Positions 426 to 33,356 of a stretch of DNA of 34,263 nt are shown piece after piece. The notes under the pieces are model-generated. The model was not told the DNA's origin. It made no database searches and worked only from the letters and a program-made list of their open reading frames with translations. This DNA is from Mesorhizobium sp. (GTDB lineage Bacteria; Pseudomonadota; Alphaproteobacteria; Rhizobiales; Rhizobiaceae), in contig JAIPUZ010000037.1 in NCBI GenBank assembly GCA_022833215.1, positions 1-34,263 on the forward strand, read 5' to 3'. A program made the translations under genes and the position numbers. How positions within the stretch are numbered: position 1 is the first letter of the stretch; each line of letters starts with the position of its first letter.

Positions 426-624
426 CCGGCGAAGGAAACGGCGGGCCTGCAACTGCCAGACATGATTATCATGGCTGTCGGCGGACCCGGGATCTGGCCG
501 GGGATCTGGAACAGCTCCGGATCATTGGCGTTGCGGGGATTTCGCAAAAGAGCTATCGGAAATCAGGCCGACTTTAATCGTGGCGTTTCCGCAACGGCGG
601 AGCGCCACTGTTCCCTGTTCCGAC

Positions 625-1140
625 ATGACCACGACCCTTGCCGATATTTTTCTGAGCAATCGCAAATCTATCATGTGGAGCGTGTTGCGGATCGTGCGTG
701 ACCCGCAGACGGCGGAAGATGTCGCGCAGGAGACCTATGTCAGGGCCCGAAAGGCCGCCGAGCACGGTCCCATCGACCACATCGAAGCCTTCCTGTTCCA
801 GACGGCCCGCAACATTGCGCTCAACCACCTGCGCCATCACAGAATTCGCGGGGCGGTCGAATGCGACGACCTGCCGGCGGCCGATGTCGGCAACATCGCC
901 TCGGATGCGCCCTCGCAGGAGGCCGATCTCATCCATCGCCAGAGGTTGCGCCATCTGCACGAGGCCGTGGCGAAGCTCCCGCAGCGGGCGAGGACGGTGT
1001 GGGTGCTCAGCCGTATTGAAAAATGGTCCTACCCCAGAATTGCCGAGCATCTCGGCGTTTCGCCGAACACCGTCTTCAATGATCTGAAGCTGGCGCATGC
1101 CCATTGCGTTGAGGCTCTGGCGAGGATCGACGGCGGCTGA
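625..1140 (+). CDS. FecI-like ECF RNA polymerase sigma factor
   Basis: A 171-residue ECF sigma factor. Region 2 is near the N-terminus (ILRIVRD-type helix, then AEDVAQETYVRA, residues about 20-45, and FLFQTARNIALNHLRHHR, about 55-75). Region 4 is C-terminal (LPQRARTVWVLSRIEKWSYP, then IAEHLGVSPNTVFNDL, about 120-155), a helix-turn-helix that reads the -35 element. The family (FecI/PupI/HasI-like) transcribes a TonB receptor gene when the receptor binds its ligand. An upstream GTG at 580 would add 15 residues. I chose ATG 625 because MTTTLADIF fits the family start, though neither start has a strong Shine-Dalgarno sequence. fecR and the receptor follow on the same strand. No copy of the ECF promoter found before those genes is visible upstream of this one, so it is probably expressed from a different, perhaps iron-responsive, promoter. 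Confidence 0.92.
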   Translation: MTTTLADIFLSNRKSIMWSVLRIVRDPQTAEDVAQETYVRARKAAEHGPIDHIEAFLFQTARNIALNHLRHHRIRGAVECDDLPAADVGNIASDAPSQEADLIHRQRLRHLHEAVAKLPQRARTVWVLSRIEKWSYPRIAEHLGVSPNTVFNDLKLAHAHCVEALARIDGG

Positions 1141-1186
1141 ACAGCCATTTGCCAGGCGAGTGGCCGTCGCCTGCAACGGGAGCGCA

Positions 1187-1226
1187 TTTTGTGAGATTCC
1201 AGCCCGCGATGTGTCTCACCTACAGG
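1187..1226 (+). promoter_or_regulatory. Predicted ECF-sigma promoter upstream of fecR
   Basis: TTTTGTGAGATT ends at 1198, followed after 12 bases by GTGTCT (1211-1216) and then TACAGG (1221-1226). The same arrangement, GTGAGATT-N12-GTGTC with TACAGG downstream, recurs in front of the TonB receptor gene at 2298-2339. The repeat is seen directly. That it is the target of the adjacent FecI-like factor is inferred from its position about 50 bases before the fecR start and from its -35/-10-like spacing. Confidence 0.6.
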
Positions 1227-1265
1227 GGCGCTCTCATGGCGACCTGCCAGACCGGATTGACCTGA

Positions 1266-2285
1266 GTGGAACCTGAAAAGCCAGAACAGAGCGAGGAGGA
1301 GGGGTTCGTCCATCCCGACGCAGCGATGGATGCTGCGCTGAACTGGTTCTTTACGCTTCAGGCCGAACCGGACGACAGGCAGTTGCGGACCGCGTTCGAG
1401 GCATGGCGTCAGGCGGATGCTGCAAACGCCCGGGCATTTGCCACGGTCGCCGAGGCCTGGGAACTTCCCGAAATGGACGTGGTTGCAGGCGAGGTGGCGG
1501 TACGTGCCGGTCACGTTGCTCCCGACCGAAAGCCTGTCGCCATCGACGGCAGGAGGCCGAAAAGGAGGGGGTGGAACCGGGCGGCTCTTGCCGCTGCCGC
1601 GGCAATTGTGATTGCTGTCGGCATCCAGCAGTACCCCGCGCTCATGCTGCGATGGCAGGCGGACTACATCACCGCGACCGGCATGCGCGATGAAATCATG
1701 CTGCCCGACGGTTCACGCATGGTGCTCAACACGGCCTCGGCCGTCGCGCTCGATTTCGAAGGCGGCCGTCGCACCGTATCGCTGCTTGGGGGCGAGGCGT
1801 TTTTCAATGTCGTCCCGGACCCCGCCCGGCCCTTCACCGTTGCCGCGGCCTTTTCCTCGGTGGAGGTGAAGGGAACGGCATTTTCCGTCCGGACAGAAAA
1901 TGATCAGGATATCGTCGTGCTGGAACACGGCCATGTCGATGTGACGCGACAAGCCGCACCCGTCGAAAAGGTGGCGCTGGAACCCGGCGAAAGCGTGAAG
2001 GCCACGGAAACCAGATTTTCCGCGGTGGAGAAAACGGATGCGGCAACAGCGCTTGCCTGGCTGAAAGGCCGCGTGATTTTCCGCGACCGTCCATTCGGCG
2101 ACGTCGTGCAGGAAATCGGCCGATATTACAGCCCGCCGGTCATCTTTGCGAACACACGGCTCAGGCAGATGAGGATCAACGGCAACTATCGCCTCGATGA
2201 TCCGGAGCGGGCGATCCGCTCTCTAGCCACCGCAGCAGGCGCTTCCGTCACCCGCCTTCCCGGCGGAATCCTAATCTTGCGATAA
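1266..2285 (+). CDS. FecR-like anti-sigma factor / surface-signalling regulator
   Basis: A 339-residue single-pass inner membrane regulator. Residues about 17-65 form the cytoplasmic DUF4880/FecR_N segment (AALNWFFTLQAEPDDRQL, then FEAWRQADAANARAF) that holds the sigma factor. A hydrophobic helix lies at about 104-124. The periplasmic FecR domain follows (LPDGSRMVLNTASAV, GGEAFFNV, VKGTAFSVR, VLEHGHVDV). The last 70 residues (FRDRPFGDVVQEIGRYY onward) are the C-terminal STN-like module that contacts the receptor signalling domain. The start is GTG with only a weak ribosome site. An in-frame ATG at 1326 is the alternative but would cut into the N-terminal helix. It lies between the sigma gene and the receptor, in the standard fecI-fecR-receptor order. 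Confidence 0.92.
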   Translation: MEPEKPEQSEEEGFVHPDAAMDAALNWFFTLQAEPDDRQLRTAFEAWRQADAANARAFATVAEAWELPEMDVVAGEVAVRAGHVAPDRKPVAIDGRRPKRRGWNRAALAAAAAIVIAVGIQQYPALMLRWQADYITATGMRDEIMLPDGSRMVLNTASAVALDFEGGRRTVSLLGGEAFFNVVPDPARPFTVAAAFSSVEVKGTAFSVRTENDQDIVVLEHGHVDVTRQAAPVEKVALEPGESVKATETRFSAVEKTDAATALAWLKGRVIFRDRPFGDVVQEIGRYYSPPVIFANTRLRQMRINGNYRLDDPERAIRSLATAAGASVTRLPGGILILR

Positions 2286-2297
2286 AAACTCAACTTT

Positions 2298-2339
2298 TTT
2301 TGTGAGATTTGCCCCGCCCGCGTGTCAGGTGTTTACAGG
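2298..2339 (+). promoter_or_regulatory. Predicted ECF-sigma promoter upstream of the TonB receptor gene
   Basis: TTTTTTGTGAGATT ends at 2309, followed after 12 bases by GTGTCA (2322-2327) and TACAGG (2334-2339). It matches the element at 1187-1226 with identical spacing between the two core blocks. It lies in the 109-base gap between fecR and the receptor ATG at 2395. It would give the receptor its own inducible promoter, in addition to read-through from fecR. Confidence 0.6.
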
Positions 2340-2394
2340 CCGGATCACCGCAGCAGCGAGCCGGCCCTCATGACCAGTTTGTAAGGGATTACCG

Positions 2395-4965
2395 ATGGGG
2401 CGAATTGCGTATGGTGGCGGCCGGGTTCGGGTTAATGGAGCGGGCCGGATTCGTGCCAGACGGCATGTCGCCTGTCTCCTCGTCACCTCGACGATGCTCG
2501 GATCGGCAAATCTCTTTTTCCCGGCGATCTCGCATGCCCAGCAGCGGGCGGCGGAACAGACGAGCTTCGACATTCCCGCGCAGCCCCTTTCCGCGGCGAT
2601 CGCCTCGTTCATCAGAATCACCGGATGGGAAGTAGGCTTCACCTCCGCGACCGTCTCGGGCAGGCGCTCGGCCCCGGTCACCGGCACGATGGCGCCCGCG
2701 CAGGCATTGCAGGCAATGCTTGCCGGTACAGGCGTGAGCGCCGATATTTCCGGTCCCTCCACCGCCGCCCTTGTTTCCGGTTCAGGTCGTACCGCGCCTG
2801 CTCAGGGCGCGCCTGCCAACGCGGACGGCTCGCTTGTGCTCGACACCATAACGATCAGCGGCGGCGGCAATCCTGCGGATGCGCCCTACAGGAGTTCGGG
2901 TTCGGGCGCGTATATCTCTGCCGGGCAGATCGAGCGGTTTCGCGGCACATCCACCGGCGACATGCTGAAATCGACGCCGGGCGTCATTGCCTCGGCAAAC
3001 CGCAACGGCGCCGCGCTCGAGGTGAACATTCGCGGCGTTCAGGGCATGAACCGCGTCAAGGTGACGGTCGACGGCAGCGAGCAGACGATTGCGGAAGGGC
3101 AGGGCTATCCCGGCAGCCGCACGCGTTCCTATGTCGATCCCGATCTGATTGCCGGAATAGAGATCGAGAAGGGCCCGCAGATGTCCGGTGCCGGTGCCGG
3201 CGCGATCGGCGGCTCGGTCAACATGCGCACGCTGGAGGTGCAGGACATCCTGAAGGACGGCAAGCAGTTTGGTATGCGGCTGAAGGGCGGGCTGACGTCC
3301 AACAACAGGCAGCCGCCACCCACCGGAACCACGACGTTCCGCGACAATCCCACCAGCCTGTTCGACTTCGACAATCTCAACGGAAGCGTGGCCGCGGCGG
3401 CGGCGCTCGGCGGCATAGACCTGGTTGCCGCCTATTCGCGGCGCAGGCACGGCAACTATTTTGCCGGCCGGCATGGCAAATCCACCTATGCCGACGAATG
3501 GGGCAACGACCAGACTTATTCCCTCTACAAGCCGGGCAGCGAGGTCCTGAACACCGGGCTGGAGACGGAGTCCTTCCTGCTCAAGTCCAGCTTCTCATTC
3601 CTTGAGGACCACAAGGTTCAGCTTTCGTGGCTGCGCTCGGACTTCTCCTATGGCGAGACATGGCCTTCCGATCTTCTCTATGGCGCGCTGAAGCAGAACG
3701 ACCCCCGCGAGACCAGAACGAACCGGCTGACGGCAAAGTATGAGTGGGATCCCGCCGAAAACGATGCGATCCGGCTGCGGGCCAATGTCTTTTACGCGGA
3801 CACCAACGACAAGGGCGCCGCCTATGCTTTCGCCAAGCCCTATACGTCGCAGAATTATGGCTTCGACGTCGAAAACGTATCGCAGTTCCACTTTGACGCA
3901 CTGGGAAGCCTGGCGCTGACCTATGGCGGCTCCTATGCAGTGGAGGATCTCAATTCCAGCCAGGGCAGGGTCAACGGCAGCAACTTCTTCTTTGAAGGCA
4001 GGCGGGACGTTGCCAGCCTCTATGCCAAGGCGGACTGGAACCCGACGGACTGGCTCGCCCTCAATGCGGGCCTGCGCTACCTGTCCTACAAGACGCAGGA
4101 TAACAGCCCGGTTTCCGGCAGCTACGGCGAGTTCGACGACCTGTCAGGCAGTTCCTTGTCGCCAGGCTTCGGGGCAAGGCTGGAGCCATGGGACGGCGTT
4201 CAGTTCTTCGCCCAGTACAATGAAGGCTATCGTCCGCCGAGCCTGCGGGAGTCGGTTTCCAACTACGACACCAGCCTCGTGCCCAATCCGTTCCTGAAGG
4301 CCGAACATGCCCGCAATCTGGAGGCCGGGATCAACCTGCTTCGCGACGATGTGCTTGTCGGGGGTGACAAGCTGCGGGTGAAAGGCGTGTTCTTCAACAA
4401 CGATATCGACGACTACATCATGAGGCTGTGGCCGAAGTCTTCCGCCTATTTCATGATGGACAATATCGACAGGGCCCGGTTCTCCGGCATAGAGCTTTCG
4501 GCGAAATACGACACCGGCACCTTCTTCGTGGATGGCAGCTTCACCTATTTCACGAAGGCGGACTATTGCTATGTCTGGACGCGATGGGAGACCCGGCCGG
4601 ACGGCACCAATCAGCAAGTGGAAAGCGACGTCTGCAGTTCCACGCCGCCCGATGTGGATTTCTCGGCCGGCTTCGTCCAGCCGCGCTTCACGGGCAGCGT
4701 AACCGCCGGTGCGCGCCTGTTCGAGGAGAAGCTCACCGTCGGGGGGCGCGTTTCCTATGTGGGGACCAACCCCGTTGCCAGTTTCGCGCCATGGCCCTCC
4801 TACACGCTGGTCGACCTCTTCGCCAGCTACAAGGTCAGCGACAGCTTGCGGGTGGACGTTGCGGCCGACAACATCTTCGACCGCTACTATCTGGATGCTC
4901 TGAGCAACAACGCCGTCGTCGCTTCCGGCCGCACATTCCGCCTCGACCTGACCGCCACCTTCTGA
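2395..4965 (+). CDS. TonB-dependent outer membrane receptor with signalling (STN) domain, heme/siderophore type
   Basis: An 856-residue receptor. A long signal peptide has a likely cleavage after SHA at about residue 48. The STN signalling domain is at about 56-117 (SFDIPAQPLSAAIASF to GTGVSADI), with a TonB box-like stretch LDTITISG at about 149-156, the plug at about 165-285 (STPGVIAS, NIRGVQGMNRV, IEKGP, GAGAIGGSVNMRT) and a C-terminal 22-strand-type barrel ending LDLTATF with terminal Phe. In the barrel, YRPP (612-615) and NPFL (631-634) correspond in position to the FRAP and NPNL motifs of heme/hemoglobin receptors but differ from them. No His lies between the two motifs, so heme is a guess and a siderophore is equally possible. 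The start has an AAGGGA ribosome site 6 bases upstream. The STN domain and the FecI/FecR neighbours indicate ligand-induced autoregulation. Confidence 0.92.
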   Translation: MGRIAYGGGRVRVNGAGRIRARRHVACLLVTSTMLGSANLFFPAISHAQQRAAEQTSFDIPAQPLSAAIASFIRITGWEVGFTSATVSGRRSAPVTGTMAPAQALQAMLAGTGVSADISGPSTAALVSGSGRTAPAQGAPANADGSLVLDTITISGGGNPADAPYRSSGSGAYISAGQIERFRGTSTGDMLKSTPGVIASANRNGAALEVNIRGVQGMNRVKVTVDGSEQTIAEGQGYPGSRTRSYVDPDLIAGIEIEKGPQMSGAGAGAIGGSVNMRTLEVQDILKDGKQFGMRLKGGLTSNNRQPPPTGTTTFRDNPTSLFDFDNLNGSVAAAAALGGIDLVAAYSRRRHGNYFAGRHGKSTYADEWGNDQTYSLYKPGSEVLNTGLETESFLLKSSFSFLEDHKVQLSWLRSDFSYGETWPSDLLYGALKQNDPRETRTNRLTAKYEWDPAENDAIRLRANVFYADTNDKGAAYAFAKPYTSQNYGFDVENVSQFHFDALGSLALTYGGSYAVEDLNSSQGRVNGSNFFFEGRRDVASLYAKADWNPTDWLALNAGLRYLSYKTQDNSPVSGSYGEFDDLSGSSLSPGFGARLEPWDGVQFFAQYNEGYRPPSLRESVSNYDTSLVPNPFLKAEHARNLEAGINLLRDDVLVGGDKLRVKGVFFNNDIDDYIMRLWPKSSAYFMMDNIDRARFSGIELSAKYDTGTFFVDGSFTYFTKADYCYVWTRWETRPDGTNQQVESDVCSSTPPDVDFSAGFVQPRFTGSVTAGARLFEEKLTVGGRVSYVGTNPVASFAPWPSYTLVDLFASYKVSDSLRVDVAADNIFDRYYLDALSNNAVVASGRTFRLDLTATF

Positions 4966-10781: not shown

Positions 10782-11801
10782 TCACGGAGTGGCAAGATTC
10801 GCGTTGGCAACAGCGTCGGCAAGGATCGACAGGCCGTCGAAGGTGCCCATCGTCGGGTCCATGGCATGGGCGTCCATGATGACAATGCGGTTTTCCTTCA
10901 CCGCGCTCATCTGGCTAGTAACGGGATCGCTCTTGAGGAATGCAATCTTGTTTTCCACATCGTCGGCGCGGTATTTCCGACGCGACATGCGTGCGACGAC
11001 GATGATGGTGGGGTCTGCGCTCGCAATGGTTTCCCAGCCGACGAGCGGCCAATCCTCATCCGATTTGATCACGTTCCGGATACCCAGGCGCTCGAGCATC
11101 CATGCCGGAGCGCCCTTGGCTCCCGCGACGAACGGATCGGTCGCCTTGTCGGAGCTTGAATACCAGAAAACAGCCGAAGCGCCGTCGCTGCGGGCAGCCT
11201 TGGCCTGTTCGACGGCGCGCGCCTCCTGTGCCTTCAGTTCGGCAATGACCTGCTCGCCCTTCCCGGAAACGTCGAAGATCGCCGCCAGCTCTCTTACGCC
11301 GGCCAGGATATTGTCGGTCTCGAGCGGAGCCAGCCGTGTCCCGTCGGCTCCGATCATGTTGTTCTTGTCGGTGCAGTCGACCGGGAGAATGTAGGTCGGG
11401 ATGCCCAGTTCATGAAACTGGTCGCGTGTTGCCACATCGCCTTTCGGGCCGACGTTCCATTCCCATTGCACCGCGACCAGCTCCGGCTGCCTGGCGGCAA
11501 CGGCCTCGAAGCTCGGCGCATTGTCCGTGATCCGTTCCACCTTTGCGTCGATTTCCCTGAACTTCTCCTGGATATCGTTGGCCCAGACCGAGGTTCCCGT
11601 GATCTTGTCCGCGAGGCCCAGAGCATAGAGTATCTCGGTCGCGGATTGCCCGATGGTAACGGCGCTTTCCGGAGCTTTCTCGAAGGTGACGGTCTGGCCG
11701 CAGTTCCTGAGCGTCAGCGGGTATTGTGTCGGCTCGGCGCAAACCGCTCCGGTGAGGAGCGCTATTGTGGCTCCGGCCACGAGAAACCGTGAAACAGGCA
11801 T
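10782..11801 (-). CDS. ABC transporter periplasmic binding protein, BtuF/FecB-like (operon-distal paralogue)
   Basis: A 339-residue secreted protein of the class III (helical backbone) metal-chelate/cobalamin binding family. The signal peptide is at about 1-24 (MPVSRFLVAGATIALLTGAV, then CAEP). The mature protein begins YPLTLRNCGQTVTF, and the family core IGQSATEILYALGLADKI follows. Later come DNAPSFEAVAARQPELVAVQ and ADPTIIVVARM. Two cysteines, in NCGQ and PVDC, are also present in the first protein of the operon and may form a disulfide. I chose ATG 11801 because TTGGAG lies 9 bases ahead of it. ATG 11810 is only 3 codons earlier. It is the last gene of the riboswitch-controlled operon and is about the same length and about half identical to the first (14769-15788). 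The ligand is unproven: corrinoid, cobalt chelate or other metallophore. Confidence 0.88.
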   Translation of the reverse strand: MPVSRFLVAGATIALLTGAVCAEPTQYPLTLRNCGQTVTFEKAPESAVTIGQSATEILYALGLADKITGTSVWANDIQEKFREIDAKVERITDNAPSFEAVAARQPELVAVQWEWNVGPKGDVATRDQFHELGIPTYILPVDCTDKNNMIGADGTRLAPLETDNILAGVRELAAIFDVSGKGEQVIAELKAQEARAVEQAKAARSDGASAVFWYSSSDKATDPFVAGAKGAPAWMLERLGIRNVIKSDEDWPLVGWETIASADPTIIVVARMSRRKYRADDVENKIAFLKSDPVTSQMSAVKENRIVIMDAHAMDPTMGTFDGLSILADAVANANLATP

Positions 11802-11839
11802 TCTGTACATCTCCAAGGAAATCGCTGCATGAGGTCGCT

Positions 11840-12514
11840 TCACGCGACCGCCGTCAGGACGAAGAATTCGATAAGGTCGGAACTCTCGACGGCGTCGTAT
11901 TTCGCACCATAGGGGTGCTCCCCGAACAAATGTTGCCATGTCCGGACTGATGAGAAACCGGCATCGGCGAGCCACGACCTGACCTCGACCTCTGCCACGC
12001 CATTGAAGTTCGGGAGGCGCTGGCCGAATTCGGTCTCGCTGGAGTTTTCTCCGATCCGCCAGATACCGTCGGAGACGAACAGTCTGCCGCCTGGTTTCAG
12101 GAGGTTGCGCGCAAGCTGGATCGCCCGCTCCGGCCGTTCCAATGTCCAGAGCACGTTCCGAATGCTGACAACTTCCGCAGCCGAAGCTTCCGGGGGCAGG
12201 TTGTCCATGTCGGCTTGCAGAAACGCGATGTCCAGGTTCCGCTCCGCCGCATCGCGCCGGGCATGCGCGAGCATCCCTGCCGAGCCGTCAAAGGCGGTGA
12301 CGTCATATCCCAGTTCGGCCAGAGCCAGCGCGCAGGCACCTGTTCCACAGCCGAGATCGATGGCACGTCCGGTTCCCTTGCCGATGGCGGAGGCAAACAC
12401 CCTGGCCCAGGCTCCATGCAGCCTGAGATGAGATGGAGCACGCTGGAAGCTGTCGGCGCGGGCATCCCAATGCTGCGCCATCGCCTTTGCAGTTACGGGC
12501 GCGATTCCCGTCAT
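11840..12514 (-). CDS. Class I SAM-dependent methyltransferase
   Basis: A 224-residue cytoplasmic Rossmann methyltransferase without a signal peptide. Motif I is AIDLGCGTGACALALAELG at about 50-68, the acidic residue at the end of strand 2 is in VTAFDGSAGML, motif II/III is AFLQADMDNLPPEA, and motif IV/V is VVSIRNVLWTLERPERAIQL followed by NLLKPGGRLFVSDG. The general family is UbiE/Methyltransf_11-like. The acceptor cannot be predicted. Its start overlaps the pseudoazurin stop by 4 bases (ATGA), so it is translationally coupled and truly part of the operon. It could modify an imported chelate or corrinoid, but this is a guess. Confidence 0.9.
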   Translation of the reverse strand: MTGIAPVTAKAMAQHWDARADSFQRAPSHLRLHGAWARVFASAIGKGTGRAIDLGCGTGACALALAELGYDVTAFDGSAGMLAHARRDAAERNLDIAFLQADMDNLPPEASAAEVVSIRNVLWTLERPERAIQLARNLLKPGGRLFVSDGIWRIGENSSETEFGQRLPNFNGVAEVEVRSWLADAGFSSVRTWQHLFGEHPYGAKYDAVESSDLIEFFVLTAVA

Positions 12515-12948
12515 TTCGATTTCCCCACACTCGCGACGATCTTTTGGAAGCGTGTGATCGCATCCTTCGGCATGCCGTCAGGGATGACCATCGATGACGG
12601 CGTGCCTGCGCCGACCTGAACCAGCATGACCATCCCCATGTCGAAATGCGGCGTGCACTTGACACCGTAGAAACCGGGTTCGGTGAAAGTGACCTCGATC
12701 TCCTGATTGATCTTGCCTTTGAATGGCTTTGCCCCATGGGGCAGGAAATCGTCGATCGTGGCCGCGTTGTGCCCGATATGGGTCGCCAGATACTTCACCG
12801 TGTCGCCGGGTGCGATCTCGAGATAGTCCGGCTCGAAGACCATGCCTCCCGTCTCGTTGCGGTTGAGCATCTTGACGTAGTGCGTTTCGGCCGCCGCGGC
12901 AGGCATGACGAATAGGGTGACGATAGCGATGGTGAGGAGGAGGCGCAT
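12511..12948 (-). CDS. Pseudoazurin-type blue copper protein (cupredoxin)
   Basis: A 145-residue secreted protein. The signal peptide is at 1-20 (ends PAAAA, mature start ETHYVKML). The fold features of pseudoazurin are present: MVFEPDYLEIAPGDTVKY, then GHNAATI, then EPGFYGVKCTPHFDMGMVML. The type 1 copper ligands are His60, Cys98, His101 and Met106 of the precursor. After removal of 20 residues these become H40, C78, H81 and M86, exactly the pseudoazurin numbering. Known pseudoazurins shuttle electrons in the periplasm, classically to copper nitrite reductase or nitrous oxide reductase. No denitrification gene is in this window. Here the gene lies 13 bases after the ATPase gene and overlaps the methyltransferase gene, inside an operon behind a cobalamin riboswitch, which is an unexpected setting. 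Confidence 0.92.
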   Translation of the reverse strand: MRLLLTIAIVTLFVMPAAAAETHYVKMLNRNETGGMVFEPDYLEIAPGDTVKYLATHIGHNAATIDDFLPHGAKPFKGKINQEIEVTFTEPGFYGVKCTPHFDMGMVMLVQVGAGTPSSMVIPDGMPKDAITRFQKIVASVGKSK

Positions 12949-12961
12949 GGAAACTTCCGGG

Positions 12962-13720
12962 CTAGAGGGTGAAGCTCATGACTGGACGGCCGCTGACATG
13001 ATCGTGGAGCATGTTGACGCGGACACCAAAGACGGTGTGAAGCAGATCGGGAGTCAGGGTTTCTTCGGGTGGGCCGACAGCGACCATCTGCCCACGGTGC
13101 ATCACGCCCACCCGGTCGCACATCAGCGCATGATTGAGATCATGAAGCGCAACGACGGCCGTAAGGGGCAGCCCTTTGATGAGGCCGAGGATGGACAGCT
13201 GATGATGGACATCGAGGTGATTGGTCGGTTCGTCCAGCAGAAGGAGCCGGGGCTGCTGGGCAAGCGCCCTGGCGAGCTGGACGCGCTGTTTCTCGCCTCC
13301 CGAGAGCGTGTGCCACAGCCGCGTCTCCATCGCACGCATCTCGACATCGGCAAGCGCCTGGCCGACGATCCTGTCTTCGTCCCGGGACCACGGCTGGAGC
13401 GCGCTCAGCCAGGGATTTCGGCCAAGCTCCACGACGTCGCGCACCGTGAGGCGATCAGCAGACTCCGAATGTTGCTCGACGAAGGCGATCATCTGGGCGA
13501 TCCGTCGCCTTGGCATGGATGCGACGCTCTCTCCCTGCAGGAAGGACGCTCCCGTCGATGGGGCGAGGATACCCTGGACCAGTCGCAGGAATGTGGATTT
13601 CCCCGACCCGTTCGGGCCGACCAGACCAAAAGTCTCTCCTTCAATGATCTCCATGCTGATGTCGCGGACGATCGAATTCCCGCGCACGGTGTAGCCCAGG
13701 TTCCGCGTTGTCAGGATCAT
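12962..13720 (-). CDS. ABC transporter ATP-binding protein, BtuD/FecE-like
   Basis: A 252-residue ATPase. Walker A is GPNGSGKST at about 35-43, the signature is LSGGEKQRVQLARALAQ, Walker B is LLLLDEPTNHLD, and the switch histidine is in VVALHDLNHA. THQ-like spacing and the NHLDVHHQ sequence are typical of ATPases serving FecCD permeases (iron-siderophore, heme, cobalamin). The start overlaps the permease stop by 4 bases (ATGA). It energises the permease encoded just upstream. Confidence 0.93.
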   Translation of the reverse strand: MILTTRNLGYTVRGNSIVRDISMEIIEGETFGLVGPNGSGKSTFLRLVQGILAPSTGASFLQGESVASMPRRRIAQMIAFVEQHSESADRLTVRDVVELGRNPWLSALQPWSRDEDRIVGQALADVEMRAMETRLWHTLSGGEKQRVQLARALAQQPRLLLLDEPTNHLDVHHQLSILGLIKGLPLTAVVALHDLNHALMCDRVGVMHRGQMVAVGPPEETLTPDLLHTVFGVRVNMLHDHVSGRPVMSFTL

Positions 13721-14772
13721 CGCATCCGCCTCGCGCGCAGCAGGATTACGGCGAAGCCGGGCGCGCCTACCAGGGCGGTGATCACACCGATGGGCAGAAC
13801 CTGGTTGGGGATGACAATGCGTGACACCACATCGGCCGCGACGAGGAATATTGCGCCCGTGAGCGCGGACGCGGGGAGCAGGCGGGCGTGGCGCACCCCG
13901 ACGATGAAGCGCGCGGCATGCGGAATCACCAGCCCGACGAAGCCTATGGCGCCAACCATGCTGACCATGGCTGCCGTCATCATCGATGTCGCCCCGATCA
14001 GAACCGCCTGCACGCGCTGGACGGGCACGCCGAGAGAGGCTGCGGAGTCCGCGCCGAAGGTGAAGGCGTCGAGCGCCCGCATGTGCCAGATGCAGATCAG
14101 GACGCCGACGGCGGCGACGGGAACGGCGAGGCCGACATCCGGCCAGCGCACGCCGCTCATATTGCCCATCAGCCAGAACATTACACCCCTTGCCTGCTCA
14201 GCGTTGGCCGAACGTGCGATGATGAAGGAGGTGAGGGCGTTGAAAAGCTGCGATCCGGCAATGCCGGACAGGATGATCAGGCCGGTCGCCTGCAGGCCCA
14301 CTCCTCCGCCTGCAGCACGTGCAAGCAGCGTCACCAGGCCAAATGCGAGGAGCGCGCCGGCAAACGCTCCCACAGACAGCGAAAGCAGGCCGGATCCGAC
14401 GCCGAGAACGAGAACGGAAACCGCGCCCGCGGAAGCTCCGGAAGAGATGCCGAGAAGGTATGGATCAGCCAGCGCGTTCCTCAGGAGCGCCTGTAGCACG
14501 GCGCCGCAGACTGCGAGCGATGCGCCGCAGCATGCCGCAACGATGACGCGCGTCAGCCGATAGTTCCAGACGATGCCGGCCTGGATCGGCGCGACCGGAA
14601 ACTCCGTTCCGAAGAACTTGTTGGAGATTGTGGCGAAGACTACGCCCGGCGGGATCGGTGTCTCGCCGATACAGACCCCCGCCGCGATGGTGACGAGCAG
14701 AAGAATGGCGGCCCCGATTGCCAGGGCCACCCGTCTGCCGCGGACCGAGGCCGTGGGGATCGCTGCGATCAT
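13717..14772 (-). CDS. ABC transporter permease, FecCD/BtuC family
   Basis: A 351-residue membrane protein with about ten helices. Family signatures are GASLAVCGAVLQALLRNALA followed by DPYLLGISSGASAGAVSVLV, later GAIGFVGLVIPHAARF (the cytoplasmic coupling loop that contacts the ATPase), and VLPIGVITALVGAPGFAVIL near the C-terminus. I chose ATG 14772 (MIAAIPTASVRGRR) because it overlaps the preceding stop in ATGA and directly precedes the first helix. Longer versions run through the upstream gene in the wrong frame. A single permease gene implies a homodimer. Confidence 0.93.
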   Translation of the reverse strand: MIAAIPTASVRGRRVALAIGAAILLLVTIAAGVCIGETPIPPGVVFATISNKFFGTEFPVAPIQAGIVWNYRLTRVIVAACCGASLAVCGAVLQALLRNALADPYLLGISSGASAGAVSVLVLGVGSGLLSLSVGAFAGALLAFGLVTLLARAAGGGVGLQATGLIILSGIAGSQLFNALTSFIIARSANAEQARGVMFWLMGNMSGVRWPDVGLAVPVAAVGVLICIWHMRALDAFTFGADSAASLGVPVQRVQAVLIGATSMMTAAMVSMVGAIGFVGLVIPHAARFIVGVRHARLLPASALTGAIFLVAADVVSRIVIPNQVLPIGVITALVGAPGFAVILLRARRMR

Positions 14773-15788
14773 TGAGCGGAAAGACCGGCCTTCGACAATG
14801 CATCCGAAATCGCCTCGATGCCGTCCGCGATCCGGATGGAGGCATGTATGGCATGTGCGTCGACGACGACGATACGGTTCTCCTTGACGGCGGTCATCTC
14901 CCGCGTAACCGGATCGCTTTTCAGGAAGTTGATCTTCACCTCGTGATCGTCCGCCGGAAAACGGCGACGGTCCATGCGTGCAACCACAATGATGTCCGGA
15001 TCGGCCTGTGCAATGCGCTCCCAGCCGACAGCGGGCCACTCCTCGTCGCTCTCGACGACGTTGCGGACGCCGAGGGTGTTCAGGATGTAGCCGGCAATGC
15101 CTTTCTGGCCGGCAACGAAGGGATCCAGGTCGATGTCGGGGCTGGAGAACCAGACGACTGCGGATGCGTCCCTGAGGTTCAGCTCCTGAGCCTTCGCCGT
15201 TGCGGCGTCGACGCGGTCCCGCAATTCCTTTTCGAGCTCGGCGCCGCGATCCTGTACGTCGAAGATTTCCGAGAGTTCACTCACGGCCTGATAAACGGTC
15301 TCGATCTGAAAGGCCGACTTGCGCGCGCCATCGCCGCCGACAAGATTGTCCTTGCCGACGCAGTCGGCGGGCATCGCGTAGACATTGATGCCAAGTTCGT
15401 TGAACTGCTGGCGGGTTCCCACGCTGCCCTGGGGGCCGACATGGACCTCGAACTGGGTGATGACCAGCTGTGGCTCCTTTGCGACGACGCTCTCGAAACT
15501 CGGATGATTGTCGGCAAGACGCTCTACCTTGGCGTTCGTGTCCCTGAACTGCGGCAAGACCTCGTTGAACCAGACAGCGGTGCCGGCGACTTTTTCTCCA
15601 AGCCCAAGCGCGTAGAGCATTTCGGTGCCGGATTGACCGATCGCGATCGCTCGGCTCGGCGCCGCGTCGAGGGTCATTTCCTGGCCGCAGTTCTGGATGG
15701 TCAGGGGATATCTGGTGGGCTCGGCGGCAGCGGGGGCCGTCGCGACAAGTCCAAGGCTGGCGGCAAGGACGAAGCGGGAAATGGTCAT
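14769..15788 (-). CDS. ABC transporter periplasmic binding protein, BtuF/FecB-like (operon-proximal paralogue)
   Basis: A 339-residue secreted binding protein, first gene of the riboswitch operon. The signal peptide is at about 1-21 (MTISRFVLAASLGLVATAPA, then AAEPTRYPL). The core is NCGQEMTLDAAPSRAIAIGQ, then SGTEMLYALGLGEKVAGTAVW, later ADPDIIVVARMDRRRFPADD. It aligns along its whole length with the last gene of the operon (NCGQ, TEMLYALGL, FDV, LGVRNVVESDEEWP, VKINFLKSDPVTREM), so the two are clear paralogues. ATG 15788 is supported by GGAGAA about 11 bases upstream and by the signal peptide. The stop overlaps the permease start. BtuF, heme or siderophore ligands are all possible by fold. 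The riboswitch argues for a corrinoid or cobalt-related ligand. Confidence 0.9.
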   Translation of the reverse strand: MTISRFVLAASLGLVATAPAAAEPTRYPLTIQNCGQEMTLDAAPSRAIAIGQSGTEMLYALGLGEKVAGTAVWFNEVLPQFRDTNAKVERLADNHPSFESVVAKEPQLVITQFEVHVGPQGSVGTRQQFNELGINVYAMPADCVGKDNLVGGDGARKSAFQIETVYQAVSELSEIFDVQDRGAELEKELRDRVDAATAKAQELNLRDASAVVWFSSPDIDLDPFVAGQKGIAGYILNTLGVRNVVESDEEWPAVGWERIAQADPDIIVVARMDRRRFPADDHEVKINFLKSDPVTREMTAVKENRIVVVDAHAIHASIRIADGIEAISDALSKAGLSAQ

Positions 15789-15801
15789 CGGGCACGGTTC
15801 T

Positions 15802-15821
15802 CCGGTCAGGCGGTTAACCGG
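15802..15821 (-). promoter_or_regulatory. Possible ribosome-site hairpin between riboswitch and first gene
   Basis: CCGGT (15817-15821, read on the minus strand) can pair with ACCGG (15802-15806), whose last two bases begin the GGAG ribosome site of the first gene. No T-run follows the aptamer, so control of translation initiation is more likely than transcription termination. The stem is only 5 bp and is tentative. Confidence 0.3.
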
Positions 15822-15930
15822 ACTTGTGGGCTGGGTCGGTATGGCGATGGCGGGTAGCGTGCCTGTAACGGCTATTGTCCCGGGCCTCGACAGACGTCCC
15901 CGGACAACCCCGCCCGGCTCGTTCGATACG

Positions 15931-16100
15931 GTGTCGGTAGGTCTCCTGACTGGCGCGTCATCGTCTCTCCCGGCCTTCCCGGGCGTGCGTCCCAGTGGCA
16001 TGTTCGAAAGAGGCTGATCGCCTACAGTTGCGGGGGCAGTTTCGGTTCACGAGCCGAAGCCCGTGGCGAATTCCCTGTTACTTCCTTGCGGAAACCGACG
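15931..16100 (-). promoter_or_regulatory. Cobalamin (B12) riboswitch
   Basis: Read on the minus strand, the region contains the conserved blocks of the cobalamin aptamer in order. AACAGGGAA is at 16079-16071. CTGCCCCCGCAACTGTAGG comes at about 16039-16021. GCCACTG is at 15999-15993. CGGGAAGGCCGGG is near 15981-15969. The B12 box AGTCAGGAGACCTACC is at 15951-15936. The closing stem P1 can form between GTCGGT (16099-16094) and ACCGAC (15938-15933). It lies about 140 bases before the first gene of the six-gene minus-strand operon. Known behaviour of this class is shut-off of uptake or synthesis genes when adenosyl- or methylcobalamin is plentiful. Confidence 0.95.
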
Positions 16101-16426
16101 CAGCGTTCGTAGACGAAGGGGGACATGCCCGCAAGAGGGGATGGATGCCACAAGCGCTAGTCGTGGGGGCGTTGACCTGTGGATGGTGGCCGTGCGGGTC
16201 CATTTTCATGACCCGTCGAACGTCGGGGACTTCGCCAACAGCGTGCTGCCGAGCTACGCTTCAGCCTCGATGACGACCATCGCCAGCGTGTAGGCTCCCC
16301 GGCATTCAGTCCGAACTGCCGGGTCAGAACTTAAATACTCCCGCGCGATCGCCTCCCGATCAACAAAACCTCTTTGTCCGGAATGACGTGGACATCGGCA
16401 TAGGGCAGGATGATGTTTCGGCCAAT
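16101..16426. other. Intergenic region, promoter of riboswitch operon expected, no confident gene
   Basis: These 326 bases lie between the aminotransferase 3' end (minus strand) and the riboswitch (also minus). The promoter of the B12-controlled operon should be here, but I cannot point to a convincing -35/-10 pair. Minus-strand translation of 16254-16364 gives a short protein-like stretch with no start codon, and 16430 leftwards gives a short read-through of the aminotransferase frame. Both may be debris or chance. Confidence 0.45.
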
Positions 16427-29048: not shown

Positions 29049-29719
29049 GCGCCGTCCCGCAGACGCGCGCTGTAACCTTCGCCGCGATGCGTGAGAATCT
29101 CGATTTCGGCACCGTCCAGCTTCTTGCGGAGCCGCGACACATAGACCTCGACCGCATTGGGCGCGACCTCGTCATCGAGGCTGAAAAGCTGGTCCAGAAG
29201 CCGCTCCTTGGTAACCAGCGCATTGATATTGCCCAGCAAAATCTCGAGAAGGCCCAGTTCCCTGCGCATCAGGGTAACGCGCCTTCCGTCGACCTCCACG
29301 GTACGTGCGCGCGTGTCGAGAACAAGATTGCCGAATGTGATGGTGCTTGCGGGGATACCCAGCGGCCTTCGCATCAGGGCACGCACACGCGCGGTCAGTT
29401 CGCGCAGATCGAACGGCTTTACCAGATAGTCGTCTGCGCCCAGATCGAGCAAGCTCACCTTGTCGTCGATTTCGGACCGTGCGGTGATGATGAGCACGGG
29501 GGTCTTGTCCCGCTTGCGACGCAGATGCTCCAGAATGGAGAATCCGTCACGTCCGGGCAGCATGACATCCAGGATGATGACATCGAACACGATGGTGTCG
29601 ATCAGCGTCAGCGCATCATCGCCATCGATCACCCAATCGACCGCATAACCGCTTTTCTTCAGCGTGGCCTGAACCGCATCGCCCAGATCGACCGTGTCCT
29701 CGACAAGCAGTATCCGCAT
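29045..29719 (-). CDS. OmpR/PhoB-family response regulator, TctD-like
   Basis: A 224-residue regulator. The receiver domain is at 1-115, with the acidic pocket in LLVEDTVDLG, the phospho-acceptor Asp51 in VIILDVMLPGRDG, the Thr/Ser switch in PVLIITARSE and Lys in DDYLVKPFDLREL. The winged-helix DNA-binding domain is at about 125-220 (LMRRELGLLEILLGNINALV, VEVYVSRLRKKLD, LTHRGEGYSARL). It is the first gene of the minus-strand trio and lies 124 bases from the divergent phnD. The direct repeat in that gap is a likely binding site. Confidence 0.95.
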   Translation of the reverse strand: MRILLVEDTVDLGDAVQATLKKSGYAVDWVIDGDDALTLIDTIVFDVIILDVMLPGRDGFSILEHLRRKRDKTPVLIITARSEIDDKVSLLDLGADDYLVKPFDLRELTARVRALMRRPLGIPASTITFGNLVLDTRARTVEVDGRRVTLMRRELGLLEILLGNINALVTKERLLDQLFSLDDEVAPNAVEVYVSRLRKKLDGAEIEILTHRGEGYSARLRDGA

Positions 29720-29730
29720 CTATGTCCGCT

Positions 29731-29754
29731 TTTCTGACAGGCTGGTGACAGAAA
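29731..29754. promoter_or_regulatory. Repeat in the regulator/phnD gap, candidate response-regulator site
   Basis: TGACAG occurs at 29735-29740 and 29746-29751, an 11-base period typical of tandem OmpR-family half-sites. The block is also flanked by the inverted pair TTTCTG (29731-29736) and CAGAAA (29749-29754). It lies 12-35 bases before the regulator start and 90-113 bases before phnD, so it could control both directions. Confidence 0.45.
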
Positions 29755-29843
29755 CTCTCTATAGGCTTCAATTCCGGTCGGCAAATAGCAGCTTCGCTAT
29801 GGGGCAGAGCCGCCGGCAAATGTATGAGGAGGAAGACCTGCCA

Positions 29844-30848
29844 ATGAAATTCACTCTGGCACCATTGTTTGGACTGGCTTGCGTCGTGGCGTTTCCACTC
29901 TCGGCCAGCGCCGATGATTGCAGTAACCGCGGCCAGCTCGACACCCTGTACTGCGACGCAGATGGCGATCTCGTCGCCGATGCACCGACCGATCCCAGCC
30001 GCTGGCGTAACCCGTCCACCATGGTCTGGGCTTACACGCCGGTAGAAGATCCGGCTGTCTATGCCGATATCTTCAAGCCGTTCACCGACCATCTCGAAGC
30101 CTGCGTTGGCAAGCGCTTCGTCTATTATCCGGTTCAGTCGAACACTGCGCAGATCGAAGCTATGCGCTCCGGCAGGCTGCACTTCGCCGCCTTCTCGACC
30201 GGTCCCACCGGCTTTGCCGTGAACATGGCCGGCGCCGTACCCTTTGCCGCCGTCGGCGTGGGCGGGCAGGTGCGTGGCTACACGCTTCAGGCGATCGTGC
30301 GCGCCGACAGCAGCTATCAGCAGCTTTCCGACCTGAAGGGCGCCCGCGTCGCCCATTCATCGCCGTCGTCCAATTCGGGCAACCTTGCGCCACGCGTGCT
30401 GTTCCCGGAATTCGGCCTGACCCCTGACGAAGACTACACGCCGCTGATGTCCGGAAGCCATGACAATTCTGTTCTCGGCGTGGCGTCGAAGGACTACGAC
30501 ATGGGCGCGGTGGCTTCAGACGTGCTTCTGCGGATGGCCGAGCGCGGCACGGTCAAGATCGAGGATTTTCGAGTGCTCTATGAGAGCGCCGTCTTCCCGA
30601 CCAATGCCTATGCACATGCTCACGATCTCGAGCCCGAACTGGCTGCGAAGCTGCGTCAGTGCGTTCTGGACTTCAAGTTCCCCAAGGAAATGTCATCGCA
30701 GTTGAGCGACGCCGAAAACTTCCTGCCAATCACCTATCAGGAACACTGGAAGGTGGTGCGCGACGTGGCTGAAAAATCGGGAACGCCGTACAACAAGGCC
30801 GCCTACGAAGAGCAGATGCGGCGCGACGCGGAAAAGAAGAAAAACTGA
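29844..30848 (+). CDS. phnD: Phosphonate/phosphate-type ABC transporter substrate-binding protein
   Basis: A 334-residue periplasmic protein. The signal peptide is at about 1-23 (MKFTLAPLFGLACVVAFPLS, then ASADD). The PhnD fold is shown by WAYTPVEDPAVYADIFKPF, VYYPVQSNTAQIEAMRSGRL, HFAAFSTGPTGFAVNMAGA and LKGARVAHSSPSSNSGNLAP. A cysteine pair near the mature N-terminus (DDCSN and TLYCDADGD) is an addition to the usual start. ATG 29844 has AGGAGG about 12 bases upstream. Earlier starts would lose the signal peptide. Ligands in the family include phosphonates, phosphite, phosphate and, in AioX-like proteins, arsenite. No C-P lyase genes are in the window, so phosphonate itself is only the family default. 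Confidence 0.9.
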   Translation: MKFTLAPLFGLACVVAFPLSASADDCSNRGQLDTLYCDADGDLVADAPTDPSRWRNPSTMVWAYTPVEDPAVYADIFKPFTDHLEACVGKRFVYYPVQSNTAQIEAMRSGRLHFAAFSTGPTGFAVNMAGAVPFAAVGVGGQVRGYTLQAIVRADSSYQQLSDLKGARVAHSSPSSNSGNLAPRVLFPEFGLTPDEDYTPLMSGSHDNSVLGVASKDYDMGAVASDVLLRMAERGTVKIEDFRVLYESAVFPTNAYAHAHDLEPELAAKLRQCVLDFKFPKEMSSQLSDAENFLPITYQEHWKVVRDVAEKSGTPYNKAAYEEQMRRDAEKKKN

Positions 30849-30863
30849 AGTCGGACCTCCGGC

Positions 30864-30895
30864 CCATCCCGGCATCGATTGCGGTGCCGGGATGG
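30864..30895 (+). terminator. Intra-operon hairpin after phnD
   Basis: CCATCCCGGCA (30864-30874) and TGCCGGGATGG (30885-30895) form a perfect 11-bp stem with a 10-base loop, followed by TTTCC. It sits 15 bases after the phnD stop and 41 bases before phnC. It is probably a partial terminator or mRNA stabiliser. Confidence 0.65.
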
Positions 30896-30936
30896 TTTCC
30901 GCACGTCTTCATTCACGTTGAAGGGTTATACGTCAC

Positions 30937-31737
30937 ATGGCGAAAACCGAGCAAATTCACATGTCTTCAGACAGGCGGCAGCCAGCGCTCAGCATAAAGG
31001 CGCTGCGCAAGGAATATCGCCCCGGCCAGCCGGTTCTCAGGAACATCAATCTCGATATCGCAGAGCCCGGCATAACCGCCATCATCGGGCCATCCGGAAC
31101 CGGAAAGTCCACGCTGATACGCTGCATCAACCGATTGGTGAACCCGACTGCCGGTGAAATCTGGTTCGATGGCATCGACATGGCCGGGCTCGACCGCCGC
31201 GACCTGCGAAAGGCACGCCGCCATATCGGCATGGTCTTTCAGGAATACAATCTGGTCGAAAGGCTTTCGGTCATCGAGAACGTCCTGTGCGGCCGTCTGG
31301 GCTACGTCCCGGCATGGCGCGCTTTCTTCCGGCGCTTTCCGGAAAAGGATGTCGAACGCGCATTCCAGCTTCTGGATTCGGTGGGGCTGGGCGCCGATTT
31401 CGCCACCCGTCGCGCCGATCAGCTCTCGGGCGGCCAGCGCCAGCGTGTCGGCATTGCCAGAGCCCTGATGCAGGAGCCGAAGCTGATGCTCGCCGATGAG
31501 CCCACGTCCTCCCTCGATCCCAAGACGTCTGTGGAAATCATGGAGCTTCTTTCCGCCCTTTCCACGCAAGGCGCCATTCCGGTTCTGGTCAACATTCACA
31601 ATGTCGGCCTTGCCAGACGCTTTGCCGGACGTATCGTCGGCATGAGCGAAGGTGAAGTGGTCTTCGATGGCCCACCCTCCGACATCACCGATGAGGATCT
31701 GGCAAAGATCTATGGCGGGGAAGGGTGGTATTCATGA
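30937..31737 (+). CDS. phnC: Phosphonate-type ABC transporter ATP-binding protein
   Basis: A 266-residue ATPase. Walker A is [18 protein letters not shown] (the RCINRL continuation is typical of PhnC) at about 50-67, the Q loop is in [20 protein letters not shown], signature [18 protein letters not shown], Walker [14 protein letters not shown], and the switch His in [22 protein letters not shown] 30937 has GAAGGG about 12 bases ahead. ATG 30961 (MSSDRRQ) is a second possibility. The stop overlaps the next start by 4 bases. Confidence 0.94.
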
Positions 31738-32543
31738 GCACCAGTCCCGCACCCAACCCCGCCTCGTGGCGCAGTCGCGCTTTCCCTGCCCGCTGGAACA
31801 AGCGGATGGCGTGGCTGGGGCTGCTGCTGTACGTCATCTACGCAACGTCGATCATCGACGTGACATGGGAACGCTTCGTAAGAGGCATTGCCAATGGCGG
31901 AACCTTCCTCGCCCGCATGTTTCCCCCAGAGACGGCGCCAGAGCGGATGGCGCTTGTCTATTCGGGTCTTCTGGAAAGCATCCAGATCGCCATTCTGTCC
32001 ACGTTCTTCGGCGTTCTTCTGTCCCTGCCCATCGCCCTGCTTGCCGCACGCAATCTGATGCCCCCCATGGTTTCATGGGCGGCGCGGGGTGTAATCGCCA
32101 TCTGCCGCTCATTCCACTATGTGATCGTTTCGATCCTGTTCGTGAAAGCGGTGGGCTTTGGCGCTCTGGCCGGCATACTGGCTCTCATCGTCGCCACCAT
32201 CGGCTTCGTCGCCAAGCTTTTCGCAGAGGCGGTCGAGGAAATGTCGATGAAGCCGGTGGAGGCACTGAGGGCGACAGGCGCTCCCTTCTTCAGCATCATC
32301 TTCCTGGCGGTGCTGCCGCAGGTGGCTGCCCGTTTCATCGGCTTCACCACCTATCAGCTGGATTCCAATCTCCGGAATTCGACCATGGTCGGCATCGTCG
32401 GCGGCGGCGGCATCGGGGCAACCCTGTTCACGGCCTATCGCCGGTTCGACTACGATCTCGTGCTGACGATCCTGATCGCCACCATCATCCTCATCATGAT
32501 CGCCGAAGCGCTGGCCACGCGCCTGCGCCGGATCTTCCAGTAG
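31734..32543 (+). CDS. phnE: Phosphonate-type ABC transporter permease, first PhnE
   Basis: A 269-residue membrane protein with about six helices. PhnE features are [20 protein letters not shown] followed by [17 protein letters not shown], the coupling-loop region [20 protein letters not shown] with downstream ATGAP, and [20 protein letters not shown] plus [20 protein letters not shown] near the C-terminus. ATG 31734 overlaps the phnC stop. A more upstream ATG at 31725 lies within phnC without a ribosome site. It pairs with the second PhnE. Confidence 0.93.
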
Positions 32544-32549
32544 AAGGCG

Positions 32550-33356
32550 ATGGAAATGAACACTGCGCAACAAGCCCGATGGGTCAGGTTCACCCCCACT
32601 GAGCGGATCGCCCGCTCGATGGTCTACATCGTCGTTGTGGTGGCCGTCATCTGGTCGCTGAAAACCGTGGAGGTGATCCCGGAATTTCTCTACGATGCGC
32701 CGGAGCAGACCGCCGATCTGCTCTCCCGGATGTGGCCGTTCGACTGGGGATATTATCCGACGGTCGTTCACGCCGCGATGATCGAGACGATCCATATCGC
32801 GACGCTGGGCACGCTGCTTTCGCTGGTTGCCGCATTGCCGCTCGCTTTCATGGCGGCACGCAACTTCACTCCTTTCCCCGTTCTCAACTGGGTGGCACAG
32901 TTCATCTTCGTCACTTCGCGTTCCGTCAACTCACTGGTCTGGGCCTTGCTCTTCGTGGCAATTTTCGGACCCGGCGCACTGGCTGGCATACTGGCGATAG
33001 CCTTCCGTTCGATCGGCTTTGTCGGGCGGCTGTTTGGCGAGGCGCTTGAAGAAGCGCAGAAGGGACCGATCGAGGCGCTGAACGCCATAGGTGCGCCGGG
33101 ATCTATGGTGCTGGCGAAAGGCTACTGGCCCCAGGCCGAGCCCGCGTTCTGGTCCATCGCGCTTCTGCGCTGGGATATCAACATCCGCGAATCCGCCGTG
33201 TTGGGTCTGGTTGGCGCCGGCGGAATCGGCCTTGCGCTCAACGCATCGCTCGACAATCTCTACTGGGATGAAGTTGGCCTCATCCTCGCCGTGATATTGC
33301 TGGTAGTTATGGCGACGGAAATCATCTCCTCGAAGATCAGAGCCCGTATCATCTGA
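32550..33356 (+). CDS. phnE: Phosphonate-type ABC transporter permease, second PhnE
   Basis: A 268-residue membrane protein paralogous to the first PhnE: MIETIHIATLGTLLSLVAAL followed by PLAFMAARNF, RSVNSLVWALLFVAIFGPGA, GRLFGEALEEAQKGPIEALN with downstream AIGAPG, and LRWDINIRESAVLGLVGAGG near the end. It begins 6 bases after its neighbour with AGAAGG ahead of the ATG (a second ATG, MNTAQQ, is two codons later). Two PhnE genes imply a heterodimeric channel. It is the last gene of the operon. Confidence 0.93.
   Translation: MEMNTAQQARWVRFTPTERIARSMVYIVVVVAVIWSLKTVEVIPEFLYDAPEQTADLLSRMWPFDWGYYPTVVHAAMIETIHIATLGTLLSLVAALPLAFMAARNFTPFPVLNWVAQFIFVTSRSVNSLVWALLFVAIFGPGALAGILAIAFRSIGFVGRLFGEALEEAQKGPIEALNAIGAPGSMVLAKGYWPQAEPAFWSIALLRWDINIRESAVLGLVGAGGIGLALNASLDNLYWDEVGLILAVILLVVMATEIISSKIRARII

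Follow-up and report, generated by a model that had tools for sequence, protein, structure and literature searches.

CbtJKL of Sinorhizobium meliloti, whose original study is reportedly that of Cheng et al. in 2011, is the described importer against which the present locus is best compared: a riboswitch-led operon in a 34,263-nucleotide stretch of Mesorhizobium sp. DNA (contig JAIPUZ010000037.1 of assembly GCA_022833215.1; hereafter the window). A review reports that CbtJKL imports Co(II), is located on pSymB under adenosylcobalamin riboswitch control, and was initially taken as a cobalamin transporter since CbtJ resembles BtuF (PMC7689651). Strains without CbtJKL have been grown with added cobalt (PMC12239276; PMC4207669), and the former paper reports that cobalt gave no advantage to plants that these strains had nodulated in sand and vermiculite (PMC12239276). 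The window transporter is most likely of the CbtJKL type rather than BtuFCD, and the operon as a whole most likely belongs to a known kind, the B12-controlled cobalt importer, in a variant equipped with a dedicated cupredoxin and a methyltransferase that is associated with chelate importers. Its elements, from the aptamer onwards, are as follows.

15919..16114, minus strand: cobalamin riboswitch aptamer (RF00174; Rfam 110.7 bits, E 3.8e-27, model positions 1-189 of 189)
14769..15788, minus strand: CbtJ-like periplasmic substrate-binding protein 1 (Peripla_BP_2; AlphaFold model with a predicted local distance difference test score, pLDDT, of 91.8)
13717..14772, minus strand: CbtK-like FecCD-family permease (FecCD, 282 bits)
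12962..13720, minus strand: CbtL-like ATP-binding cassette (ABC) ATPase (ABC_tran, 114 bits)
12511..12948, minus strand: operon-type pseudoazurin with a signal-peptide-like N-terminus (Copper-bind; above the TIGR02375 cut-off; nearest solved structure 1bqk)
11840..12514, minus strand: class I S-adenosylmethionine-dependent methyltransferase, short (type A) form (Methyltransf_11; AlphaFold pLDDT 90.4)
10782..11801, minus strand: CbtJ-like substrate-binding protein 2 (Peripla_BP_2)

The aptamer is full-length and is the single RNA-family match of Rfam across the whole window, and the six open reading frames behind it overlap by 4 bases at three junctions and are separated by gaps of 13 and 38 bases at the others, exactly as an earlier sequence-only reading of this DNA had described. 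The duplicated binding protein and the blue copper protein that it had pointed out were likewise confirmed, the former by two Peripla_BP_2 proteins that are 51% identical to each other, and the latter by the type 1 copper ligands H60, C98, H101 and M106 (40, 78, 81 and 86 in mature numbering) in a cupredoxin that passes the NCBIfam pseudoazurin cut-off (TIGR02375, 125.4 bits against 109.85). A simple scan found no terminator-like sites between the operon genes on the minus strand, its sole minus-strand match lying inside the permease gene, and the leader RNA did not fold better than shuffled sequences (z 0.56). The arrangement is judged to be beyond chance because the identical gene order occurs again in the host genome and in other genera.

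A stretch from a S. meliloti plasmid of pSymB size (L036) holds a riboswitch, binding protein, permease and ATPase, with a methyltransferase next; it is inferred to be cbtJKL, having been matched by replicon type, riboswitch and homology, without a locus tag. The window operon resembles it in having a riboswitch upstream of a FecB-like binding protein, a FecCD permease and an ATPase, homologous to the J, K and L subunits and in that order (identities of 48-49%, 63% and 54%, respectively, with binding protein 1 at 47% in a separate comparison), and differs in adding a second binding protein and a pseudoazurin to the one binding protein of the S. meliloti stretch. The window system shares with BtuFCD its class of binding protein, permease and ATPase as well as riboswitch control, and BtuF structures (5ysc, 1n2z) are among the fold matches, so that import of cobalamin or cobinamide by a BtuFCD-like corrinoid importer could be considered. 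However, none of the three subunits reaches its NCBIfam cut-off for Btu proteins (BtuC 206 against 334 and 228 against 461, BtuD 124.7 against 281, BtuF 34.4 against 234), and CbtJKL, once assumed to be such an importer, is reported to carry Co(II) (PMC7689651), which makes this explanation quite improbable. The earlier suggestion that the operon imports a corrinoid, a cobalt chelate or another metallophore is supported for cobalt or a cobalt chelate, and finds no support for a corrinoid in the BtuFCD sense. By this analogy, cobalt is very likely the substrate of the window importer.

EitABC, a plasmid-borne system annotated for siderophore or iron transport, supplies the best NCBIfam names for the window binding protein and ATPase, with scores far below the cut-offs (EitA 288 against 640, EitC 277 against 485), and the subunits also fall under the cut-offs of the F420-0 transporter families. 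Membership of BtuFCD, Eit or F420-0 systems is therefore not claimed. Unlike the window, the stretches that are Eit-like by identity (L117, L118, L123, L126, L161 and L162) have no cobalamin riboswitch, pseudoazurin or methyltransferase, and no cobalamin riboswitch was found in 13 stretches with Eit-like or more distant transporters. A quick permease tree was built without matches that contain a stop, are shorter than 200 residues or share less than 33% identity. Six Eit-like rows (54-56% identical) branch there outside the remaining rows with a support of 85, in a topology where many deep forks are below 80, no single branch separates the outgroup from the rest and long branches come together. 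L123 (52% identical, no riboswitch), itself a long branch, attaches on the riboswitch side, at a fork that is open. There is thus moderate evidence that the window permease groups with riboswitch-bearing permeases, apart from the Eit-like ones.

How widely this arrangement is shared was surveyed in 80 loci, the best of 501 relatives in a genome scan with a query alignment of five binding proteins, four of them from riboswitch operons; the loci were chosen on the binding protein, and Pseudomonas makes up most of them. Riboswitches were sought with a covariance model built from 13 aptamers, a permissive regular expression having been dropped for matching everywhere. One training aptamer (L034) comes from the same species and operon as a member of the 80 (L038), and the window aptamer, with 99.9 bits under this model, is itself a training row. 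Neighbouring genes were found by tblastn with named queries, while gene calling by G+C position, which yields shadow reading frames, was kept for single loci. A same-strand cobalamin riboswitch lies just upstream in 78 of the 80 loci (L114 has none and L083 only one in the opposite orientation, also with filters off); behind the binding protein, 79 loci have the permease and 78 the ATPase. A pseudoazurin comes directly after the ATPase in 29 loci from alpha-, beta- and gammaproteobacteria. Among the carriers known from these and other loci are Rhizobium, other alphaproteobacteria, Rhodobacter, Roseomonas, Diaphorobacter and Pseudomonas; the operon of Rhodobacter capsulatus SB1003 lies on plasmid pRCB133 (L119, RCAP_RS17710 to RS17690). 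Clustering behind cobalamin riboswitches, on which the sequence-only reading had staked its functional link, is therefore conserved and far from unique to one strain. An OprD porin (18/80) and a GNAT gene (29/80) also recur near the permease, both families having been named on the Diaphorobacter locus L121. Links to cobalt insertion are seen in Paracoccus yeei, where the operon adjoins cobO, DUF1636, cobW and cobN, and in Pseudosulfitobacter, with cob genes upstream. In an even draw of 387 alphaproteobacterial genomes, one of them that of the host, ten loci came to light in nine of the genomes besides the host, with a riboswitch at all eight loci of 61-66% permease identity and at neither of the two at 54%.

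The pseudoazurin is one of the two components that set the window apart from the S. meliloti stretch, and its own features argue for a specialised protein. Of 39 operon pseudoazurins, 37 retain all type 1 copper ligands. In a tree, the operon copies form one clade (Shimodaira-Hasegawa-like approximate likelihood ratio support of 100) apart from 15 other rows. This tree contains one weak match far under the cut-off (L188), leaves out the broken copies L067 and L080, and has a row labelled free (L176) that is in fact the operon gene of L042, without which it holds 37 operon and 15 other rows; the approximately unbiased test of a single clade (p-AU 0.211) was run with L176 mislabelled in this way. 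The family and the four copper ligands are shared with the pseudoazurin of denitrification (for example PDB 1bqk), from which the operon copies differ by their separate clade, fewer patch lysines, and Ala43 with Met88. At positions 10, 38, 57 and 77, the lysines which we take to dock pseudoazurin to nitrite reductase, one lysine is present in 29 and two in 7 of 36 operon copies, compared with three in 3 and four in 11 of 14 free copies; the window protein keeps K57 and K77 only. Position 10 is arginine in 32 of the 36 operon copies, so that its charge is kept. Met88, beside the copper loop, occurs in 36/36 operon against 1/14 free copies, and Ala43 together with Met88 in 35/36 against 0/14. 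These counts leave out L188, L176 and L038 (a duplicate of L034), and about eight further free copies lie outside the comparison, as only 30 of 45 pseudoazurin matches in 29 genomes were made into loci.

Those 29 genomes were drawn from the 80, and 25 of them were picked for an operon pseudoazurin or a remnant of one. Exactly one match is present in 17; once the L044 remnant and a weak non-operon match at L048 are set aside, hand comparison of positions leaves 15 genomes that have no pseudoazurin besides the operon copy. NosZ was sought with TIGR04244 in 35 of the 80 genomes (PF18764 matched no control) and passed the cut-off in nine, Paracoccus denitrificans included, and in none of the 15 genomes with the operon copy as sole pseudoazurin; the host genome has no NosZ over the same cut-off. 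These results bear on a defence against nitrous oxide (N2O) or nitrite, in which N2O destroys cobalamin and the ensuing B12 shortage induces a pseudoazurin feeding NosZ or copper nitrite reductase. Pseudoazurins do serve denitrification (PMC12848317), and N2O is reported to alter B12-riboswitch genes in Paracoccus denitrificans (PMC5987163, PMC8390676). Nevertheless, the distribution of NosZ, a lysine pattern unlike that of the free copies and the presence in the host of a separate pseudoazurin near a multicopper oxidase, among those outside the operons, make this role the least probable of those weighed here, and a very remote one. Clade, copper ligands, lysine pattern and the sole-copy genomes without NosZ together argue for a copper protein that is dedicated to the importer and does not have NosZ as its partner, nitrite reductase not having been searched for. 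The tie to the importer is also favoured by L110 and L042, in which a riboswitch leads a binding protein and a pseudoazurin but no permease. As judged from sequence, the operon pseudoazurin probably acts in the periplasm as a partner dedicated to cobalt import, and it is likely that it works in cobalt import at all. Searches of the open-access literature yielded nothing tying pseudoazurin to the cobalamin riboswitch, to CbtJ, or to cobalt with cobalamin, and what they gave for azurin concerned another riboswitch.

What such a partner might do can be considered in two ways. Electron transfer to the metal would be compatible with the intact copper site. By contrast, a copper guard would bind periplasmic Cu and spare Co on a scarce chelate or on CbtJ during cobalt starvation, with no electron transfer; intact ligands combined with the loss of patch lysines would be expected if redox docking were irrelevant, the near-exclusive Met88 beside the copper loop points the same way, and copper outcompetes cobalt for most ligands in the Irving-Williams series. 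Yet type 1 copper geometry is tuned for electron transfer, a single cupredoxin would be a small sink, no other copper gene was found in the window operon with Pfam, and Lys10 has mostly given way to an arginine of the same charge, so that the guard is considered unlikely. Reduction of Co(III)-chelates is favoured over it with modest confidence, because cupredoxins reduce Co(III) complexes in vitro; that this pseudoazurin reduces Co(III) is nonetheless a doubtful proposition taken singly.

The methyltransferase follows a pattern of its own. The short form is found in the window, in Paracoccus and on a Sinorhizobium medicae plasmid (48-51% identical), and a longer form (30-31%) in S. meliloti and in a second host operon on contig C61, the latter at 36% identity to that of the window in a separate comparison. 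Two of the eight riboswitch-bearing loci of the even draw have a methyltransferase, one of them as a 55-residue piece. A search of 297 genomes of the order found relatives at E 1e-20 in 13 besides the host, and in all 13, as read in the stretches, a FecCD permease lies within about 3 kb, five being CbtK-like (65-69%) and eight more distant (33-40%). No cobalamin riboswitch was found in the stretches of those eight (L127-L133 and L140), and one riboswitch-free binding protein beside such a relative comes nearest to a ferrichrome/ferrioxamine transporter model, below its cut-off (235 against 374). The S. medicae short form stands behind its own riboswitch with DUF1636 and an ABC importer with a family-5 binding protein, and in L037 the methyltransferase follows a ZinT-containing gene. 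Judging from these neighbours, the methyltransferase keeps company more steadily with the import of metals or chelates than with the riboswitch. Its model folds like UbiG and many small-molecule methyltransferases; the corrinoid-protein-associated methyltransferase CpaM was rejected at 64 bits against a cut-off of 180 (NF043040). Its company with several FecCD importers makes action on the imported compound somewhat likelier, and action on the chelator itself is put forward tentatively, as a possibility short of probable.

Both accessory proteins might also take part in a B12-independent substitute reaction, the importer being merely co-regulated; the sequence-only reading had offered the replacement of a B12-linked function by the cupredoxin as its alternative. 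This bypass draws on B12-independent methionine synthesis by MesD/MesX, which is not next to the window operon but shares a riboswitch unit with a binding protein and a pseudoazurin in L110 (8747-12632), where riboswitch, binding protein, pseudoazurin, MesX and a MetE-core protein stand in a row with no permease. Similarly, the S. medicae plasmid stretch (L035, 1-14359) has three riboswitches, before NrdHIE, before MesX/methionine synthase and before the DUF1636-methyltransferase-ABC importer unit, and a riboswitch precedes NrdI-containing genes in L037. However, those enzymes are cytosolic whereas the pseudoazurin N-terminus is signal-like, and 37 of 39 pseudoazurin genes lie behind a permease and an ATPase, the others (L042 and L110) being riboswitch-binding protein-pseudoazurin units without a permease, in a set where most loci were found via the binding protein. 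A bypass is accordingly regarded as improbable.

The host genome (4.55 Mb in 131 contigs, with eight cobalamin riboswitch matches) offers a setting for cobalt import. Its second operon, on C61 (L029), comprises a riboswitch, binding protein, permease, ATPase, pseudoazurin and the longer-form methyltransferase, with identities to the window genes of 62% for the binding protein, 72% for the permease, 59% for the ATPase and 51% for the pseudoazurin. The close permease relatives in the host (E 1e-80 or better) number two, that of the window included, each with a pseudoazurin two genes downstream. Elsewhere (L030), DUF1636, CobW and CobN lie behind another riboswitch, with CobJ further along the same strand, and a further riboswitch stands ahead of a ribonucleotide reductase pair. 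Because DUF1636, CobW, CobN and CobJ are encoded, B12 synthesis in the host very probably follows the late cobalt-insertion route.

On this basis, a scarcity of adenosylcobalamin would lead the riboswitch, by the habit of its RNA family, to permit expression of the operon, whereupon CbtJ1 and CbtJ2 would catch cobalt in the periplasm, most likely as a chelate, and hand it to CbtK/CbtL. The pseudoazurin may serve as a one-electron donor to inert Co(III)-chelates, yielding labile Co(II) that CbtJ can bind. In the cytosol, the methyltransferase may modify the ligand that has been taken up, or a small molecule related to it, and the imported cobalt would go to the late cobalt-insertion (CobN) pathway, whose genes lie in other parts of the genome. 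This whole explanation, CbtJKL-type cobalt import with an accessory pseudoazurin, Co(III) reduction and a ligand methyltransferase, is held to be moderately probable.

Several observations weigh against it. Cobalt specificity is transferred to the window operon from S. meliloti, and the ATPase of the L036 stretch there matches as two pieces in different frames. Across 43 rows of CbtJ, no histidine reaches 90% conservation; together with invariant Arg90, 156, 274, 275 and 305 and Trp73, 213 and 256 in the same rows, this would suit an anionic chelate more than a bare ion. Neither the S. meliloti stretch nor any of the eight riboswitch-bearing loci of the even alphaproteobacterial draw has the pseudoazurin, and it is broken where the importer genes are kept in L044 (11839-12104), L067 (6865-7251) and L080 (11841-12302). 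It is therefore not required, and the even draw indicates that it marks a part of the importer family; its presence on the permease tree needs 13 changes. Only 9 of the 80 loci have the methyltransferase close to the permease; in L037 and L040 it precedes the riboswitch, and in L120 it is encoded on the opposite strand.

Some further observations concern the surroundings of these genes. The predicted CbtJ fold is nearest to the uncharacterised binding proteins 4mlz and 4n01, and then to heme and siderophore binders. A FecR-TonB receptor set lies within about 6 kb of both host cbt operons (window 580-4965; L029 9923-13604), and in L029 it is the next element downstream of the operon. Also in the window, at 29694-33356, are a binding protein, an ATPase and two permease-like genes that are phosphonate-type by appearance, with the profile scan run on the ATPase alone. 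On host contig C5 (L031, 9721-11304), a riboswitch precedes a Rieske oxygenase that is nearest to the glycine betaine monooxygenase GbcA (517 bits, cut-off 670).

A more far-reaching version of the explanation can be formulated as dedicated reductive cobalt assimilation. The CbtJ-linked pseudoazurin clade would act in the periplasm, reducing Co(III) that is held by strong ligands, for example hydroxamate siderophores. CbtJKL would import the Co(II) once freed or re-chelated, and the methyltransferase shared with siderophore importers would modify the ligand for metal release in the cytosol, all under B12 control. We consider this version unlikely; to our knowledge, it would be the first such system known.

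To summarize, the trace cobalt supply of aerobic B12 producers, for which the metal is often strongly complexed, is poorly understood. That one clade of cupredoxins accompanies a B12-riboswitch cobalt importer across three classes of proteobacteria points to a step of this supply in the periplasm that has so far gone unrecognised, either redox or copper control. The present comparison also suggests that many genes now annotated for iron or siderophore transport encode cobalt importers.

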